A stretch of 64,000 bases of DNA from Microbacterium sp. Bi121 (lineage in GTDB: Bacteria; Actinomycetota; Actinomycetes; Actinomycetales; Microbacteriaceae), in the NCBI RefSeq assembly GCF_918698005.1, contig NZ_CAKKLJ010000009.1, positions 1-64,000 on the forward strand, written 5' to 3'. This document shows positions 28,595 to 64,000 of this stretch, one piece after another. How positions within the stretch are numbered: position 1 is the first letter of the stretch; each line of letters opens with the position of its first letter. The notes beneath the pieces were generated by a model that was not told the origin of the DNA, made no database searches, and saw only the letters and a program-made list of their open reading frames with translations. Made by a program: the position numbers and the translations under genes.

Positions 28595-28674
28595 GCAACT
28601 CCGGAGCTTCTTGCGAGATCCGCGTATTTCCGGTTGGTCGGGTCGCCCAACGGGCAGTCTCTCCGGAGTTATGC
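28595..28674. repeat. Palindromic element A1, left flank of the DUF559 gene
   Basis: This 80-bp imperfect palindrome begins GCAACTCCGGAG (28595-28606) and ends CTCCGGAGTTATGC (28661-28674). It is an inverted relative of element A2, sharing the ends and an internal TTTCCG...TGGTC segment. The stop codon of the DUF559 gene lies inside its right arm (TTA of GTTATGC at 28669-28671). Confidence 0.75.
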
Positions 28675-29544
28675 AGCACGACGCACGCGCATCCGAGGTC
28701 CGAACGCCTCGATGATGCCGGCGATCTGCTGCCGCACGTTGGACGGGTCGAACAGGATGTCGGCTGCAATGGGCCGAACGGTCGCGTATCCGAGCTGGGC
28801 GGCCGCGATGTCGCGCGTCCGGTCCTCGACCTGCTTGTCCCACCCTGCGTGAAACTCCTTGCTGTCGCACTCGATGATGAGCCACCCCTCGACTACGAAG
28901 TCCACCCGACCCACGCCTGGGATCGTCACCTGAGTTTCAAACCGCAGACCCAGGGTGCGCAGGATCAGCCGCATGTACGTCTCAGGACCCGATTCGGCGG
29001 AAGCATCGACGAGCTTCAAGAGCGTGTGCAGGCGGCTGGGGAGGCACATGAAGAGCTCCTCCAACTGGATCCGCGTCGCGAGACGCAGGTGGAGCACGCT
29101 GTCCAGAGTGGCGATTGCGGCTCGCGGCTCCTGACAGAGAATCGCTTGGAGCACGGCATCCCGGATCGAGACCACGTGGCGCGGACCGCCCTTTCGCATC
29201 CGACGCGACCAGTGCATCACCGTGTTGCGCGACTTCCGCTTCCGGATACGCGACATGTGCGGGTGAACGTGCATGTGCAATCCGGCCGACCGCAGCACGA
29301 ATACGCCGACCATCTCCAGCAAGGTGATGCAAGCGACCCGGCCGCCGATTCGAACCGCCTCTGCCACGCGGTCGTCGATGTCCGGGTGTGCATAGTGGTC
29401 TCGGCGCAGCCGCAGCAGGGCGCCGACTTTCACCGCGCGAGTGATGTCCGCTCCGGTACTGCCGCTTTCGAGGAGTTCGGCGCGGGAGAACACCATCGGA
29501 GCGTACGTCTCAGCGATGCGTTCGGCTGTTTTCTGCTTCTCCAT
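28669..29544 (-). CDS. DUF559/Vsr-like endonuclease-fold protein with AbiEi-type N-terminal domain
   Basis: The protein is 291 residues. The N-terminal domain resembles an AbiEi-type winged helix (VFSRAELLESGSTGADITRAV, residues about 18-40). The C-terminal ~100 residues show a PD-(D/E)xK nuclease-like core (GRVDFVVEGWLIIECDSKEFH, about residues 215-235: Asp, Glu, Asp-x-Lys), as in DUF559/Vsr-like proteins. It is flanked on both sides by inverted palindromic repeats A1 and A2, its stop lies inside A1, and upstream it shares a leader pattern with the related gene at 62.5 kb. Activity is unproven; it could instead be an antitoxin-like regulator. The start ATG is taken as 29544 with GGGGG just upstream. 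Confidence 0.75.
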   Translation of the reverse strand: MEKQKTAERIAETYAPMVFSRAELLESGSTGADITRAVKVGALLRLRRDHYAHPDIDDRVAEAVRIGGRVACITLLEMVGVFVLRSAGLHMHVHPHMSRIRKRKSRNTVMHWSRRMRKGGPRHVVSIRDAVLQAILCQEPRAAIATLDSVLHLRLATRIQLEELFMCLPSRLHTLLKLVDASAESGPETYMRLILRTLGLRFETQVTIPGVGRVDFVVEGWLIIECDSKEFHAGWDKQVEDRTRDIAAAQLGYATVRPIAADILFDPSNVRQQIAGIIEAFGPRMRVRRAA

Positions 29545-60587: not shown

Positions 60588-62282
60588 TTGGCAGCAGAGC
60601 CGCGCATCATCGCTGAGCGGTACCGTGTGGACGAGCTCATCGGCCACGGCGGCATGGCCAAGGTGTACCGCGGATACGACCTCACACTCGGGCGCGACGT
60701 CGCGATCAAGATCCTCGATCCCGAGCTCGCCCGCGACACGGCGTTCCGCACCCGGTTCCGGCTCGAGGCGCAGGCTGCATCGCGCATGTCGCACCCGTCG
60801 ATCGTGCGCGTCTTCGATGCCGGAGACCCTGGATCCGCCGATGGCGCGACGTCCGCCGACAGCGAGCCGTACATCATCATGGAGCTCGTCCAGGGTCGGC
60901 TGCTGAAGGACATCATCGCGGCCGGGCCTGTGTCCGTCGAGGACGCGGTCCGCTACGTCGACGGCATCCTCGAGGCCCTCGACTACTCGCACCGCGCCGG
61001 CGTCGTGCACCGTGACATCAAGCCGGGCAACGTCATGGTCACCGATCGCGGCCAGGTCAAGGTCATGGACTTCGGCATCGCCCGCGCCGTCTCCGACTCG
61101 TCATCCACGGTCGCCGAGACCACGCAGATCCTCGGCACGGCCGCGTACTTCTCCCCCGAGCAGGCCAAGGGCGAGCCTGTGGATGCCAGGGCCGATCTGT
61201 ATTCGACCGGTGTCGTGCTCTACGAGCTGCTCACCGGGCGCCAGCCGTTCCGCGGGGACTCCCCCGTCGCCGTCGCGTACCAGCACGTGAGTGAGGCGCC
61301 GGTGCCGCCGACCGAGGTCAAGGAGGACGCGCCGAAGACGCTCGACCCGATCGTGCTCCGCGCCCTCGCGAAGGATCCGTACCAGCGGTATCCGGATGCC
61401 GCGAGCTTCCGCCTCGCGCTCGACTCCGCTGTCACCGGCAAGGCGCCGACGAAGAAGCAGCTGGGCGCGCTCACCAGCGAGCTGTACGGGCCGAGCCCGC
61501 GGCAGGCGCAGGAGACCGCACGGTCTCTGCGGCAGCTGAGCTCCGACACCACGATGACCCGCACGCAGTCCGGCCCTCCGGTGGCATGGATCTGGGCCGG
61601 CGTCGCACTGCTGGCCGTGCTGCTGATATCGGTTCTGCTGTGGGTGATCATGATGCCGCGCGGCGAGCAGATCCCGACATCCTCCCGCATCGTGCCCGAC
61701 CTCGTCGATGTCTCGTCGGAGCGCGCGCAGGCCGACCTGCTCGACCTCGATCTTCAGTCCGAGATCATCTATGAGGCCGATGCCGACGTCGCCGAGGACA
61801 ACGTCATCCGCACCGATCCGGAGGCCGGGCAATCGGTGAAGGTCGGCGAGACGATCACGCTGTACGTATCGTCCGGTGCCGAGACCGTTGAGGTGCCGAA
61901 GCTCGTCGGCCTCTCGCAGACCGCCGCCAAGGATGCCTTGACCAAGGCCGGGCTCGAACTCGGCACGGTGACGCCGCGCAGTGATGCCGAGAGTGCTGCC
62001 GACACCGTACTCGAGGCCAGCGCCGAAGAGGGCACGGAGGTCGCGCCGAAGACGGTGATCAACCTCGTCGTCGCCAGCGGGCGCGTGACGCTGCCTGACG
62101 TCACGGGCTGGACGCTGGACGCCGCAACGGCGAAGCTCGGCGAACTGGGACTGAACGCGATCCAGACCGAGTCGCCCGACTGCCCCGCGACGACGCCGGC
62201 AACGGTTGCGTCGATGTCGTCCGCACCGGGCGATGTGCCGGTGCACTCCGACGTCGAGCTCCGGTACTGCACGGGCGAGTAG
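60588..62282 (+). CDS. pknB: Ser/Thr protein kinase PknB with three PASTA domains
   Basis: The 564-residue kinase has HRD (VHRDIKPGN), DFG and SPEQA in residues 1-275, a membrane helix at about 335-358 and three PASTA domains (starting near SRIVPDLVDV, ETVEVPKLVGL and RVTLPDVTGW). PASTA domains bind muropeptides and lipid II. TTG start at 60588 with GGGGGA upstream. It ends the kinase/cell-wall operon. Confidence 0.95.
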   Translation: MAAEPRIIAERYRVDELIGHGGMAKVYRGYDLTLGRDVAIKILDPELARDTAFRTRFRLEAQAASRMSHPSIVRVFDAGDPGSADGATSADSEPYIIMELVQGRLLKDIIAAGPVSVEDAVRYVDGILEALDYSHRAGVVHRDIKPGNVMVTDRGQVKVMDFGIARAVSDSSSTVAETTQILGTAAYFSPEQAKGEPVDARADLYSTGVVLYELLTGRQPFRGDSPVAVAYQHVSEAPVPPTEVKEDAPKTLDPIVLRALAKDPYQRYPDAASFRLALDSAVTGKAPTKKQLGALTSELYGPSPRQAQETARSLRQLSSDTTMTRTQSGPPVAWIWAGVALLAVLLISVLLWVIMMPRGEQIPTSSRIVPDLVDVSSERAQADLLDLDLQSEIIYEADADVAEDNVIRTDPEAGQSVKVGETITLYVSSGAETVEVPKLVGLSQTAAKDALTKAGLELGTVTPRSDAESAADTVLEASAEEGTEVAPKTVINLVVASGRVTLPDVTGWTLDAATAKLGELGLNAIQTESPDCPATTPATVASMSSAPGDVPVHSDVELRYCTGE

Positions 62283-62331
62283 TCGCGCCTGCTCGCGCCC
62301 CCGCGCCTCGCCTCGCCCCGGCTTCGCGCCG

Positions 62332-62391
62332 GATGCGAGAAGGGTTTCGCGGCTTCACAGGCCGGCGGAGCGACGCAATCCTTCTCGCATC
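62332..62391. repeat. Palindromic element B1, left flank of the second DUF559 gene
   Basis: This 60-bp element has perfect 12-bp terminal inverted repeats: GATGCGAGAAGG (62332-62343) and CCTTCTCGCATC (62380-62391). It is similar to the reverse complement of B2, with GAGAAGGGTTTCGCGG and TTCTCGCATC identical. Confidence 0.85.
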
Positions 62392-62507
62392 GACTCGCGA
62401 CCTGTCGCCCGCGACACGTTCTGCACAGTGCGACCGGATGGGCGACCTGTGCACAGGCCCAGAGAATCTCGGGTTGCCGGTTTGCGCGACTGCGCCAGTA
62501 TCAGGGG

Positions 62508-63431
62508 ATGCGACACAGAGTTCCGCTTCCCCGCCGTCCCGGCGACAGGTTCTCGGTGCGCAGCGCGGAAGCCGCCGGCATCCGTCGCGGCCGGTGCAGC
62601 ACCCCCGATCTGCACTGGCCGTTCCACGGAGTCCGCTCACGCGAGAAGCTGGTGACATTCGATGACGTGGTCCGCTGCTACGAGCCGCGTCTGAAACCGG
62701 GTCAACGGTTCGGCGGGCTGACGGCGGCCCGCGACTGGGGACTACCGCTGCCGACGATGTGGGAACCGGACGAGCCGATCGAGGTCATCGTGCCGCCGAC
62801 GGGGGCCGCGCCGAAGACCGCGGGGGTGAAGGGACGTCGGCTGCGCGAGGATCGCGCCGAAACACGCATTCTCAAAGGACGCCCGGTCGTCGACCCGGTC
62901 GCGGCGCTGTTCACCTGCGCGAGCACGCTAACCGTGCAGCAGGCTGTCACGATCATCGATGCACTGCTGACGACGGCATCCAACTATCCGGGATTGGGGC
63001 CCGGCAGGCCGATGAGCACGCGCGACGAAATCGCCCGTCGCCTCGATGAGTGGTGGCGGTTCCCCGGGAGTACGACGATCCGCACTGCGCTGCGTCAGGC
63101 ACGCGAGCGGGTGGAGTCCCCGAAGGAGACCGAGACGCGACTGCTGCTCATCGCGAGCGGTCTGCCCGAGCCGGTCGTGCAGCAGGAAGTGCGGGCGGGC
63201 GGCGTGCTGCTGGGGCGCATCGACCTCGCCTACCCCGAACTCAAGGTCGCGATCGAGTACGAGGGGGATGGCCACCGGACCGATAAGGAACAGTGGCGAA
63301 AGGACATCCAGCGACAGCGGCATCTCGAGAGCGAAGGATGGATCGTCATCCGCCTCACTCAGGCCGACCTCGACGCGAGGGAGCCGATGATCGCGAGCAT
63401 CCGTCGCGCGATCATCGCGCGAACCCCGTGA
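62508..63431 (+). CDS. DUF559-like endonuclease-fold protein (second copy)
   Basis: The protein is 307 residues. The N-terminal half resembles AbiEi-type antitoxin domains (RFSVRSAEAAGIRRGR; PDLHWPFHGVRS). The C-terminal ~90 residues carry a Vsr/PD-(D/E)xK-like core (GRIDLAYPELKVAIEYEGDGHR, about 245-266) and an RLTQADLD tail. It shares this architecture and a 39-bp leader pattern with the gene at 28.7-29.5 kb, but not its repeats. It lies between pknB and trpG, a junction that is normally uninterrupted. The start ATG at 62508 has a possible TTGCCG/CAGTAT promoter. Confidence 0.75.
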   Translation: MRHRVPLPRRPGDRFSVRSAEAAGIRRGRCSTPDLHWPFHGVRSREKLVTFDDVVRCYEPRLKPGQRFGGLTAARDWGLPLPTMWEPDEPIEVIVPPTGAAPKTAGVKGRRLREDRAETRILKGRPVVDPVAALFTCASTLTVQQAVTIIDALLTTASNYPGLGPGRPMSTRDEIARRLDEWWRFPGSTTIRTALRQARERVESPKETETRLLLIASGLPEPVVQQEVRAGGVLLGRIDLAYPELKVAIEYEGDGHRTDKEQWRKDIQRQRHLESEGWIVIRLTQADLDAREPMIASIRRAIIARTP

Positions 63432-63441
63432 CGCACCCCCG

Positions 63442-63477
63442 GTCTCGGGCATCCGCCCCGTCTCGGGCATCCGTCCT
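63442..63477. repeat. Two tandem 18-bp repeats after the DUF559 gene
   Basis: GTCTCGGGCATCCGCCCC (63442-63459) is followed by GTCTCGGGCATCCGTCCT (63460-63477), two mismatches. They lie between the DUF559 stop and element B2. Confidence 0.8.
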
Positions 63478-63483
63478 GTCTGC

Positions 63484-63543
63484 GATGCGAGAAGGATGTC
63501 GCGGTCTCGCGCCGATCTGAACCCGCGAAACCCTTCTCCCGTC
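63484..63543. repeat. Palindromic element B2, right flank of the second DUF559 gene
   Basis: This 60-bp imperfect palindrome begins GATGCGAGAAGG (63484) and ends CCCTTCTCCCGTC (63543). It is an inverted relative of B1; the arms are less perfect than in B1 because the right end has CCCGTC instead of CGCATC. Confidence 0.8.
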
Positions 63544-63570
63544 CGTGAGCATCTCACGCGAGTGAGATGC

Positions 63571-64000
63571 TCACGCGAGCGGATGCAACGTCGCCGCCGC
63601 CGCGACGGCGCGCGGATCTCCGACGGAGGTGAGCCAGTTGGCCAGCAGGCGGTAGCCGTGCTGCGTGAGCACGCTCTCTGGATGGAACTGCACGCCGACG
63701 ATCGGCAGGTCGCGGTGCGCGATGGCCATGACCGTCCCCGATGCCGTGCGCGCCGTGACCGTGAGCTCGGCGGAAAGCTCCCCCTCCGCGAGCGCCAGCG
63801 AGTGATACCGACCGACGTCGAACGGCGAGGGGATGCCGTCGAACAGGGCTGACCCGTCGTGCTCGACGGTCGAGACCATTCCGTGCATGAGCTCCGGAGC
63901 GTGGGAGACCTCGGTGCCGAATGCCGCCCCGATCGCCTGATGGCCGAGACACACGCCGAGCAGCGGCATCCCCAGCCCGGCGCACAGCTCGACGACGTCG
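63571..64000 (-). CDS. trpG: Glutamine amidotransferase, TrpG/PabA type (5' partial)
   Basis: This is the C-terminal ~143 residues of a class I GATase. The nucleophile Cys lies in GVCLGHQAIG and the His/Glu of the triad in HPESVLT. The frame continues past the window edge (DVVELCAGLGMPLL...). Position beside pknB in opposite orientation is typical of actinobacterial trpG/pabA. Whether it serves anthranilate or aminodeoxychorismate synthase cannot be decided here. Confidence 0.9.
   Translation of the reverse strand, partial: DVVELCAGLGMPLLGVCLGHQAIGAAFGTEVSHAPELMHGMVSTVEHDGSALFDGIPSPFDVGRYHSLALAEGELSAELTVTARTASGTVMAIAHRDLPIVGVQFHPESVLTQHGYRLLANWLTSVGDPRAVAAAATLHPLA

Follow-up and report, generated by a model that had tools for sequence, protein, structure and literature searches.

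A DUF559/MTES_1575-type gene that stands between pknB and trpG in Microbacterium sp. Bi121, in the 64,000-nt stretch of DNA analyzed here (the window), is bracketed by two 60-nt palindromes, B1 and B2, in inverted orientation, and this locus (B) exemplifies a general pattern of palindrome-bracketed DUF559-type genes in which gene clade and palindrome family change in step. The bracket, its generality, the pairing of clades with families, the dispersed copies and the sites without copies in relatives were computed, and the fold of the protein is predicted by a model. By a modest margin we favor the interpretation that the palindromes are the nuclease's own sites, the pair behaving like REP repeats and their RAYT transposases with an unrelated enzyme in the RAYT's place; binding, cutting and movement are inferred, and RAYT genes were not counted in these genomes. 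The parts of the locus are listed in Table 1.

Table 1. Parts of the pknB-trpG locus, in window coordinates.
Feature	Position	Strand	Remarks
pknB-like kinase	60588-62282	+	host gene, left border of insert
Whole insert, pknB stop to trpG stop	62283-63570		1288 bp; gene absent at the junction in 29 relatives read
B1, 60-nt palindrome	62332-62391		18/22 outer pairs match; 49 bp after pknB stop
DUF559/MTES_1575-type gene, 307 aa	62508-63431	+	stop included
AbiEi-antitoxin-like half, residues 2-199	62511-63104	+	structure match 6y8q; DNA binding predicted
Vsr / I-Bth0305I-like nuclease half, residues 204-307	63117-63428	+	structure match; invariant residues
B2, 60-nt palindrome	63484-63543		inverted relative to B1; 52 bp after stop of DUF559-type gene
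trpG, C-terminal part	63571-64000	-	host gene, right border; runs off the window

B1 and the reverse complement of B2 are identical at 44 of 60 positions and have in common a 16-nt run, GAGAAGGGTTTCGCGG, and the end CCTTCTCGCATC; local alignment of the sequence before the gene with that after it gives a best score of 57, where the maximum in 2000 first-order shuffles is 35. The sequence-only reading from which this work started, that 60-bp repeats sharing a 16-bp arm and an end lie inverted around a DUF559-like gene, thus held. Its claim that an element A elsewhere in the window has the same architecture was not borne out here: the DUF559-type gene of element A (window 28669-29544, minus strand) has no matched repeat pair in its 600-bp flanks (score 25; median of the mismatched-pair null, 26). 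It had also missed the solo copies of the palindrome elsewhere in the genome, described below. B1 reads GATG...CATC and B2 ends in CGTC, an ending that, as judged by eye, the six solo units described below do not have. A perfect hairpin with 14-bp arms, CGTGAGCATCTCAC, lies between B2 and the end of trpG (window 63544-63575) and is possibly a terminator.

The same reading had proposed an insertion at the pknB-trpG junction, and this is supported. A pknB gene was found in 145 of 149 genus genomes, and the junction was examined at the 30 best pknB loci, the window's own included, leaving out the other 115 genomes with pknB. A DUF559-type match occurs at the junction in the window's own locus only, the gene being absent from 29/29 of the others; the presence of gene and palindromes there in essentially all relatives, which would have refuted an insertion, was not seen among these 29. 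The pknB-trpG stop-to-stop distance is about -28 to 55 bp in 28 of the 29 relatives, and the junction of G078 (L118) holds 270 bp of an unrelated repeat (GTCGTTGAGCGAGCG...) and no DUF559-type gene. Because the nearest of the junction relatives is only 87% identical in pknB, the insertion cannot be finely dated, and neither an exact insertion end nor a target duplication could be read at this junction, the relatives' junctions being short and diverged. The GTCGTTGAGCGAGCG... repeat was also seen in G099 (L374), at a place where the window's genome has a B unit; it is possible that different species fill identical intergenic places with different repeats.

The generality of the bracket was assessed with homologues from a genus search supplemented by 40 regions hand-picked down a ranked list, from a phylum draw (matches at 1e-8 in 133 of 396 genomes; 30 loci taken) and from a named collection (the best 80 of at least 572 homologues). 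Removal of 9 duplicates and 6 loci with short flanks from the 182 loci left 167, at each of which the 600 bp before the gene were compared with the 600 bp after it at a threshold score of ≥42 (the 99% point for mismatched left-right pairs is 39). A repeat pair was found at 102 of the 167 loci, the best match being direct in 49 and inverted in 53; no matched pair reached the threshold at the remaining 65. In 84 of the 102 cases the palindromic character of the matched repeats exceeds the 95% point for random 84-mers, and in 18 it is not clear; the median unit length is 61 nt (quartiles 55.5-65) and the median spacer 16. About 90-130 bp often separate the end of the left repeat from the gene. 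Controls are low: 1/64 for flanks 650-1250 bp away at first-batch loci, 0/28 for the flanks of pknB and 1/20 for arbitrary loci. In the phylum draw 14 of 29 loci lie above the 95% point of the null (12 of 26 without three genus loci), and bracketed genes beyond the genus include those of Jiangella, Pseudarthrobacter and Agromyces. In the first batch 53 of 71 loci exceeded the 95% point of their own null and just 6 the 99% point; that null contained loci sharing a family. Of a further 18 loci outside the 167, one of them a repeat of an earlier locus, 12 scored ≥42. Several gene-palindrome pairs can coexist in one genome, as do B and the pairs at C1 and C2 in that of the window. The plasmid collection contains few homologues (8 of 72,556 records). 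At the orthologous sites L086/L087 and L034/L037 the nuclease element was observed to have 79-81% DNA identity, as against 88-92% for the host flanks.

Repeat sharing tracks protein identity, which supports the expectation, also raised by the sequence-only reading, that each DUF559 clade has its own palindrome family. For pairs among the 102 loci, with a repeat counted as shared at a score of ≥36, sharing was found in 10/10 pairs at ≥80% protein identity, 11/13 at 70-80%, 27/58 at 60-70%, 46/250 at 50-60%, 14/179 at 45-50%, 1/304 at 40-45% and 5/4337 below 40%; the Mantel correlation is 0.456, a value reached by 0 of 999 permutations. The palindromes of a 74%-identical homologue in G096 are weakly related (scores of 42 and 38; null 95% point 36.5, maximum 50).

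For one family, GAGTGTCC, the presence of repeats was compared with that of the cognate gene across the 149 genus genomes, using the arm pattern TTGAGTGTCCAAGACACGC with ≤2 mismatches; an intact palindrome can give two arm matches, so units number about half the matches. Any match occurs in 23 genomes, ≥5 matches in 17 and up to 136 in a single genome; 126 genomes have none, and the reversed pattern gives 0 in all 149. A clade profile finds genes above 400 bits in 16 genomes, and ≥5 matches are present in 13 of these 16 versus 4 of the 133 without a clade gene. The profile was built from 12 genes chosen for being flanked by the GAGTGTCC repeat, so that the association is in part by construction (11 of the 12 source genomes have ≥5 matches), and the genus genomes are related, so that the counts are not independent. 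Of the four genomes newly found by the profile, G104 and G055 have ≥5 matches; G050 and G140 have none and carry beside the clade gene a variant palindrome, GAGAGTCC, in which both arms are changed. The four genomes with ≥5 matches and no clade gene above 400 bits are G016, G053, G063 and G073; in G053 a truncated clade nuclease gene (G053:C65:26474-27166; 163 of 297 profile positions) lies between two GAGTGTCC copies.

Copies of the B palindrome are dispersed in the window's genome. The pattern GATGCGAGAAGGNTNTCGCG with ≤3 mismatches occurs there at 20 places, versus 2 for the reversed pattern; at ≤2 mismatches the B pattern has 10 matches, of which B1/B2 account for 3, and none of the 148 remaining genus genomes has more than 3. 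(A search with AGAAGGNNTTCGCGGGTTC at 3 mismatches was rejected for copy counting, its background being too high.) Six complete solo 60-nt B units lie away from the gene, with 14-16 of their outer 22 pairs matching; the remaining places are single arms or lie inside coding-like frames. Five of the six solo units overlap no coding-like frame by a crude codon-position test, which missed the window gene itself, and three sit 15-30 bp behind a stop; some of the palindromes are predicted to fold into stable hairpins. The solo site L020 measures 161 bp in the window's genome and 47 bp in G099, where there is no palindrome, and G078 has a different repeat at this site. The solo site L012 was considered as a clean empty site and rejected, since G099 carries another repeat there. 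Two other loci of the window's genome were noted in passing: at L002 (G000:C1:169462-170376) a 58%-identical relative is bracketed by another palindrome family with near-perfect arms of 24-25 bp (GATGCTGTATCACTYCGGTCGGTT), and at L005 (G000:C2:180912-181154) a distant DUF559-type gene has a third family (ACGGATGTCGGACGAT) on both sides.

The anatomy of the unit was examined in G093, which has 102 arm matches at ≤1 mismatch (control 0) and from which 44 units were extracted, from 14 merged stretches around 30 exact matches. These GAGTGTCC units are 55-56 nt long with paired feet GTTG/CAAC, and they cluster at spacings of about 100-190 bp; their arms hardly vary, partly owing to the way in which units were picked, and the central spacer is constant in length and varies freely in sequence. 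Compensatory changes in the stem show no excess (8 cells versus a shuffled mean of 13.7, from 40 of the 44 units), and a selected hairpin is not supported because no such excess was found within one genome. A spacer fixed in length and free in sequence is easier to reconcile with a pair of protein contacts on duplex DNA than with a selected hairpin; this is an inference made without binding data. Sites also differ between relatives. G119 and G031, whose element loci are about 94% identical, were compared over 400 kb: they share the units next to the gene and two further ones, and G031 lacks one unit (at G119:371195) and one cluster (at about G119:378803-379078). The single unit belongs to a family without an identified gene, global alignment at the cluster is poor so that its absence from G031 rests on BLAST coordinates, and gain could not be distinguished from loss in this comparison; neither a target-site duplication nor the exact end of an insert was identified at the sites examined. 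Tandem clusters of another short repeat family, CGAGTGAGTATTCGCG, were also seen in G119 (L317, L318 and L319; contig C1, 39-77 kb), in both orientations.

The window protein matches the Pfam family DUF559 at 22.2 bits (cut-off 20.6, met) and REase_MTES_1575 at 32.4 bits, below the cut-off of 38.2; the MTES_1575 domain is described as a Vsr-type REase (PMC3710099). The same Pfam search gave no Y1 (HUH) transposase family at E ≤ 1, and no AbiEi sequence profile matched at E ≤ 1. An AlphaFold model from 36 sequences (pLDDT 94.3, pTM 0.90) predicts an AbiEi-like half fused to a Vsr / I-Bth0305I-like nuclease half. By VIA-align, residues 2-199 match AbiEi 6y8q (Z 9.9, rmsd 6.2, 175 aligned), with differing domain poses, and residues 204-307 match I-Bth0305I 3r3p (Z 9.6, rmsd 2.6, 96 aligned); NGO0050 3hrl (Z 9.1) and Vsr 1cw0 (Z 7.3) were also matched. 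The best Foldseek match is 3r3p (E 3e-3), and only 3hrl (E 6.5e-4) and 3r3p (E 0.025) are matched in the PDB by sequence profile. E207, D239, E250, G253, H256 and D266 are invariant in 36/36 aligned homologues; in the stretch aligned with I-Bth0305I (3r3p) a KD-type Asp aligns and H256 has no His counterpart, without a residue-level structure alignment. The DNA site of AbiEi consists of two 23-bp inverted repeats with 3 bp between them, and the inverted-repeat pairs bound by Rv2827c are separated by 13 bp (PMC7319586), which gives 49-59 bp per site pair, and I-Bth0305I is said to dimerize on a target of nearly 60 bp (PMC3943268); the palindromes studied here match the AbiEi and I-Bth0305I sites in size and layout.

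In the mechanism that we propose, B would be one copy of a widespread two-part element, consisting of a fused DNA-binding/nuclease gene and its own palindromic recognition site, copies of which would lie one on each side of the gene, with more in intergenic DNA. On duplex DNA, two protein molecules would occupy a single palindrome through its two ~20-nt arms, a step proposed because the arms are conserved and the spacer is constant in length but free in sequence, and the nuclease half would nick or cut at the palindrome. Cutting at the bracketing palindromes or at solo copies may lead to copying or excision through the cell's repair, whereby the palindromes would multiply and the gene would occasionally be carried to a new intergenic place, as is thought for RAYT transposases with REPs; palindromes without a gene would be non-autonomous copies.

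Other explanations account for parts of these observations. The protein might be an AbiEi-like regulator for which the flanking palindromes serve as operator and terminator and the scattered copies as a regulon, the nuclease half acting in defense or repair. This operator reading is favored by the predicted AbiEi-like half, by the autoregulation of AbiEi and Rv2827c through paired inverted repeats (PMC7319586), by the frequent position of the left repeat about 90-130 bp before the gene, and by the conserved arms and fixed spacer; we nevertheless consider it unlikely, given that 102/167 loci have a matching copy behind the gene as well, that copies are clustered at spacings of about 100-190 bp and half of the solo B units sit just behind a stop, that the nuclease residues are invariant, and that copies are missing from orthologous sites. 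Equally improbable in our view is a homing reading, in which the palindromes are older host repeats that owe their spread to another agent, and the nuclease gene has adapted to use sites next to or between them as a safe harbor for insertion. The homing-endonuclease-like catalytic domain and the four genomes with ≥5 repeat matches and no full clade gene speak for it; against it, repeat families change in step with the protein, 126/149 genomes have no GAGTGTCC match and most rich genomes hold the clade gene, and no genome other than the window's is enriched in the B pattern.

Less likely still is that a RAYT or IS200-type HUH transposase encoded elsewhere moves the palindromes, with the DUF559 gene as a passenger. 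GTAG REPs of other bacteria are indeed tied to RAYTs (PMC3733652), but the B protein has no Y1 transposase match at E ≤ 1 and many repeat families are each paired with their own DUF559-type gene; RAYTs, as stated, were not counted in these genomes. The view that the repeats are nothing more than bidirectional terminators, or G+C-rich inverted repeats due to chance, finds support in the stable hairpins predicted for some and in the position of some close behind stop codons; as a full account it is virtually ruled out, since sequence is common to both flanks and to dispersed copies, and the shuffled, mismatched-flank, shifted-flank and pknB controls are low, and these readings were rejected on the shuffles, mismatched flanks and shifted flanks.

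Among known systems the closest resemblance of the preferred reading, that of a nuclease with its own palindromic sites, is to REP/RAYT (REPtrons, GTAG repeats), in which an enzyme gene likewise lies between palindromes with dispersed, clustered, family-specific copies. However, the enzyme here joins a Vsr-like nuclease to an AbiEi-like half whereas RAYT is a tyrosine (HUH) transposase, and most units here measure about 55-65 nt and have a free spacer whereas REPs are 20-40 nt GTAG-tagged hairpins; by eye, neither the 60-nt B units nor the 55-56 nt GAGTGTCC units, whose feet pair, have the form of a 20-40 nt palindrome with an unpaired GTAG or CGTC tag at its base. By analogy the gene-palindrome pair would work like REP/RAYT, a function that is inferred, while failing two defining features, the Y1 transposase and the tagged 20-40 nt palindrome. 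The EDxHD homing endonuclease I-Bth0305I offers a solved catalytic fold near to that of the window protein and has a described dimer on a ~60-bp target, but the gene here is not in an intron, has palindromes on both sides and carries another DNA-binding half. AbiEi-family antitoxins (AbiEi, Rv2827c) resemble residues 2-199 in fold and have paired ~20-bp inverted repeats as DNA site; unlike them, the window protein is fused to a nuclease, has no toxin gene beside it (the neighbors are pknB and trpG), and similar palindromes are dispersed in the genome. The catalytic domain belongs with the Vsr / DUF559 / MTES_1575 REase family (Pfam matches; 1cw0 Z 7.3). Vsr itself acts in repair beside a cytosine methylase, unlike the setting of the window protein. 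No link between Vsr/DUF559/MTES_1575 and palindromes appeared in the open-access literature searched. CGTC-tagged REPs are, like the repeats here, palindromic, and are said to have no dedicated transposase, but their stems of 8-9 bp and loops of 4-5 bp (PMC3733652) are not those of the repeats here, and the link was dropped because these sizes differ. Passages of a REP survey (PMC12306157) mention neither Microbacterium nor RAYT. The parts are thus known, and the combination of a DUF559 gene with palindromes was not found described in the open-access literature searched, as judged by titles and abstract openings.

Beyond Actinobacteria, a DUF559 consensus used as query found stand-alone genes in 35 records of the plasmid collection, and 10 non-actinobacterial ones were examined. 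A CTCTCCC/GGGAGAG-like palindrome lies ≤150 bp from the gene in 9 of these 10 loci, and in five 40-kb stretches 12 of 27 palindromes of this type fall inside (4) or ≤150 bp from a DUF559 gene, a zone that makes up about 2% of the sequence. The flanks had been inspected before this pattern was chosen, three gene ends were estimated and five genes are common to both counts, so that this is a lead only; the paired-flank score reaches ≥42 in 3 of the 10 loci, one of the three being a repeated coding stretch. The stand-alone genes beside G+C-rich palindromes are from Alphaproteobacteria and Deinococcus. In a Sphingomonas parapaucimobilis plasmid (unnamed5; L360) a stand-alone DUF559 gene separates sufB from sufC in the Fe-S operon and is immediately preceded by a palindrome. 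A bolder inference, which in our judgment may as readily prove wrong as right, is that the DUF559-type nucleases at large are the enzymes so far missing for bacterial palindromic repeats without a RAYT, and that these repeats would form a separate class of mobile palindrome, relying on duplex cutting by a nuclease and not on HUH single-strand chemistry.

Many bacterial genes, as seen among the matches, are annotated only as DUF559 or as 'endonuclease domain-containing protein', and the pairing of clade and palindrome offers a direct, testable substrate for DUF559 proteins. The pairing bears on the repeats said to have no dedicated transposase (PMC3733652), and it points to more than one origin of REP-like repeats, with unrelated enzymes. 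If it is true that the nuclease binds and cuts its palindromes, the family would supply many natural protein-site pairs of long specificity.
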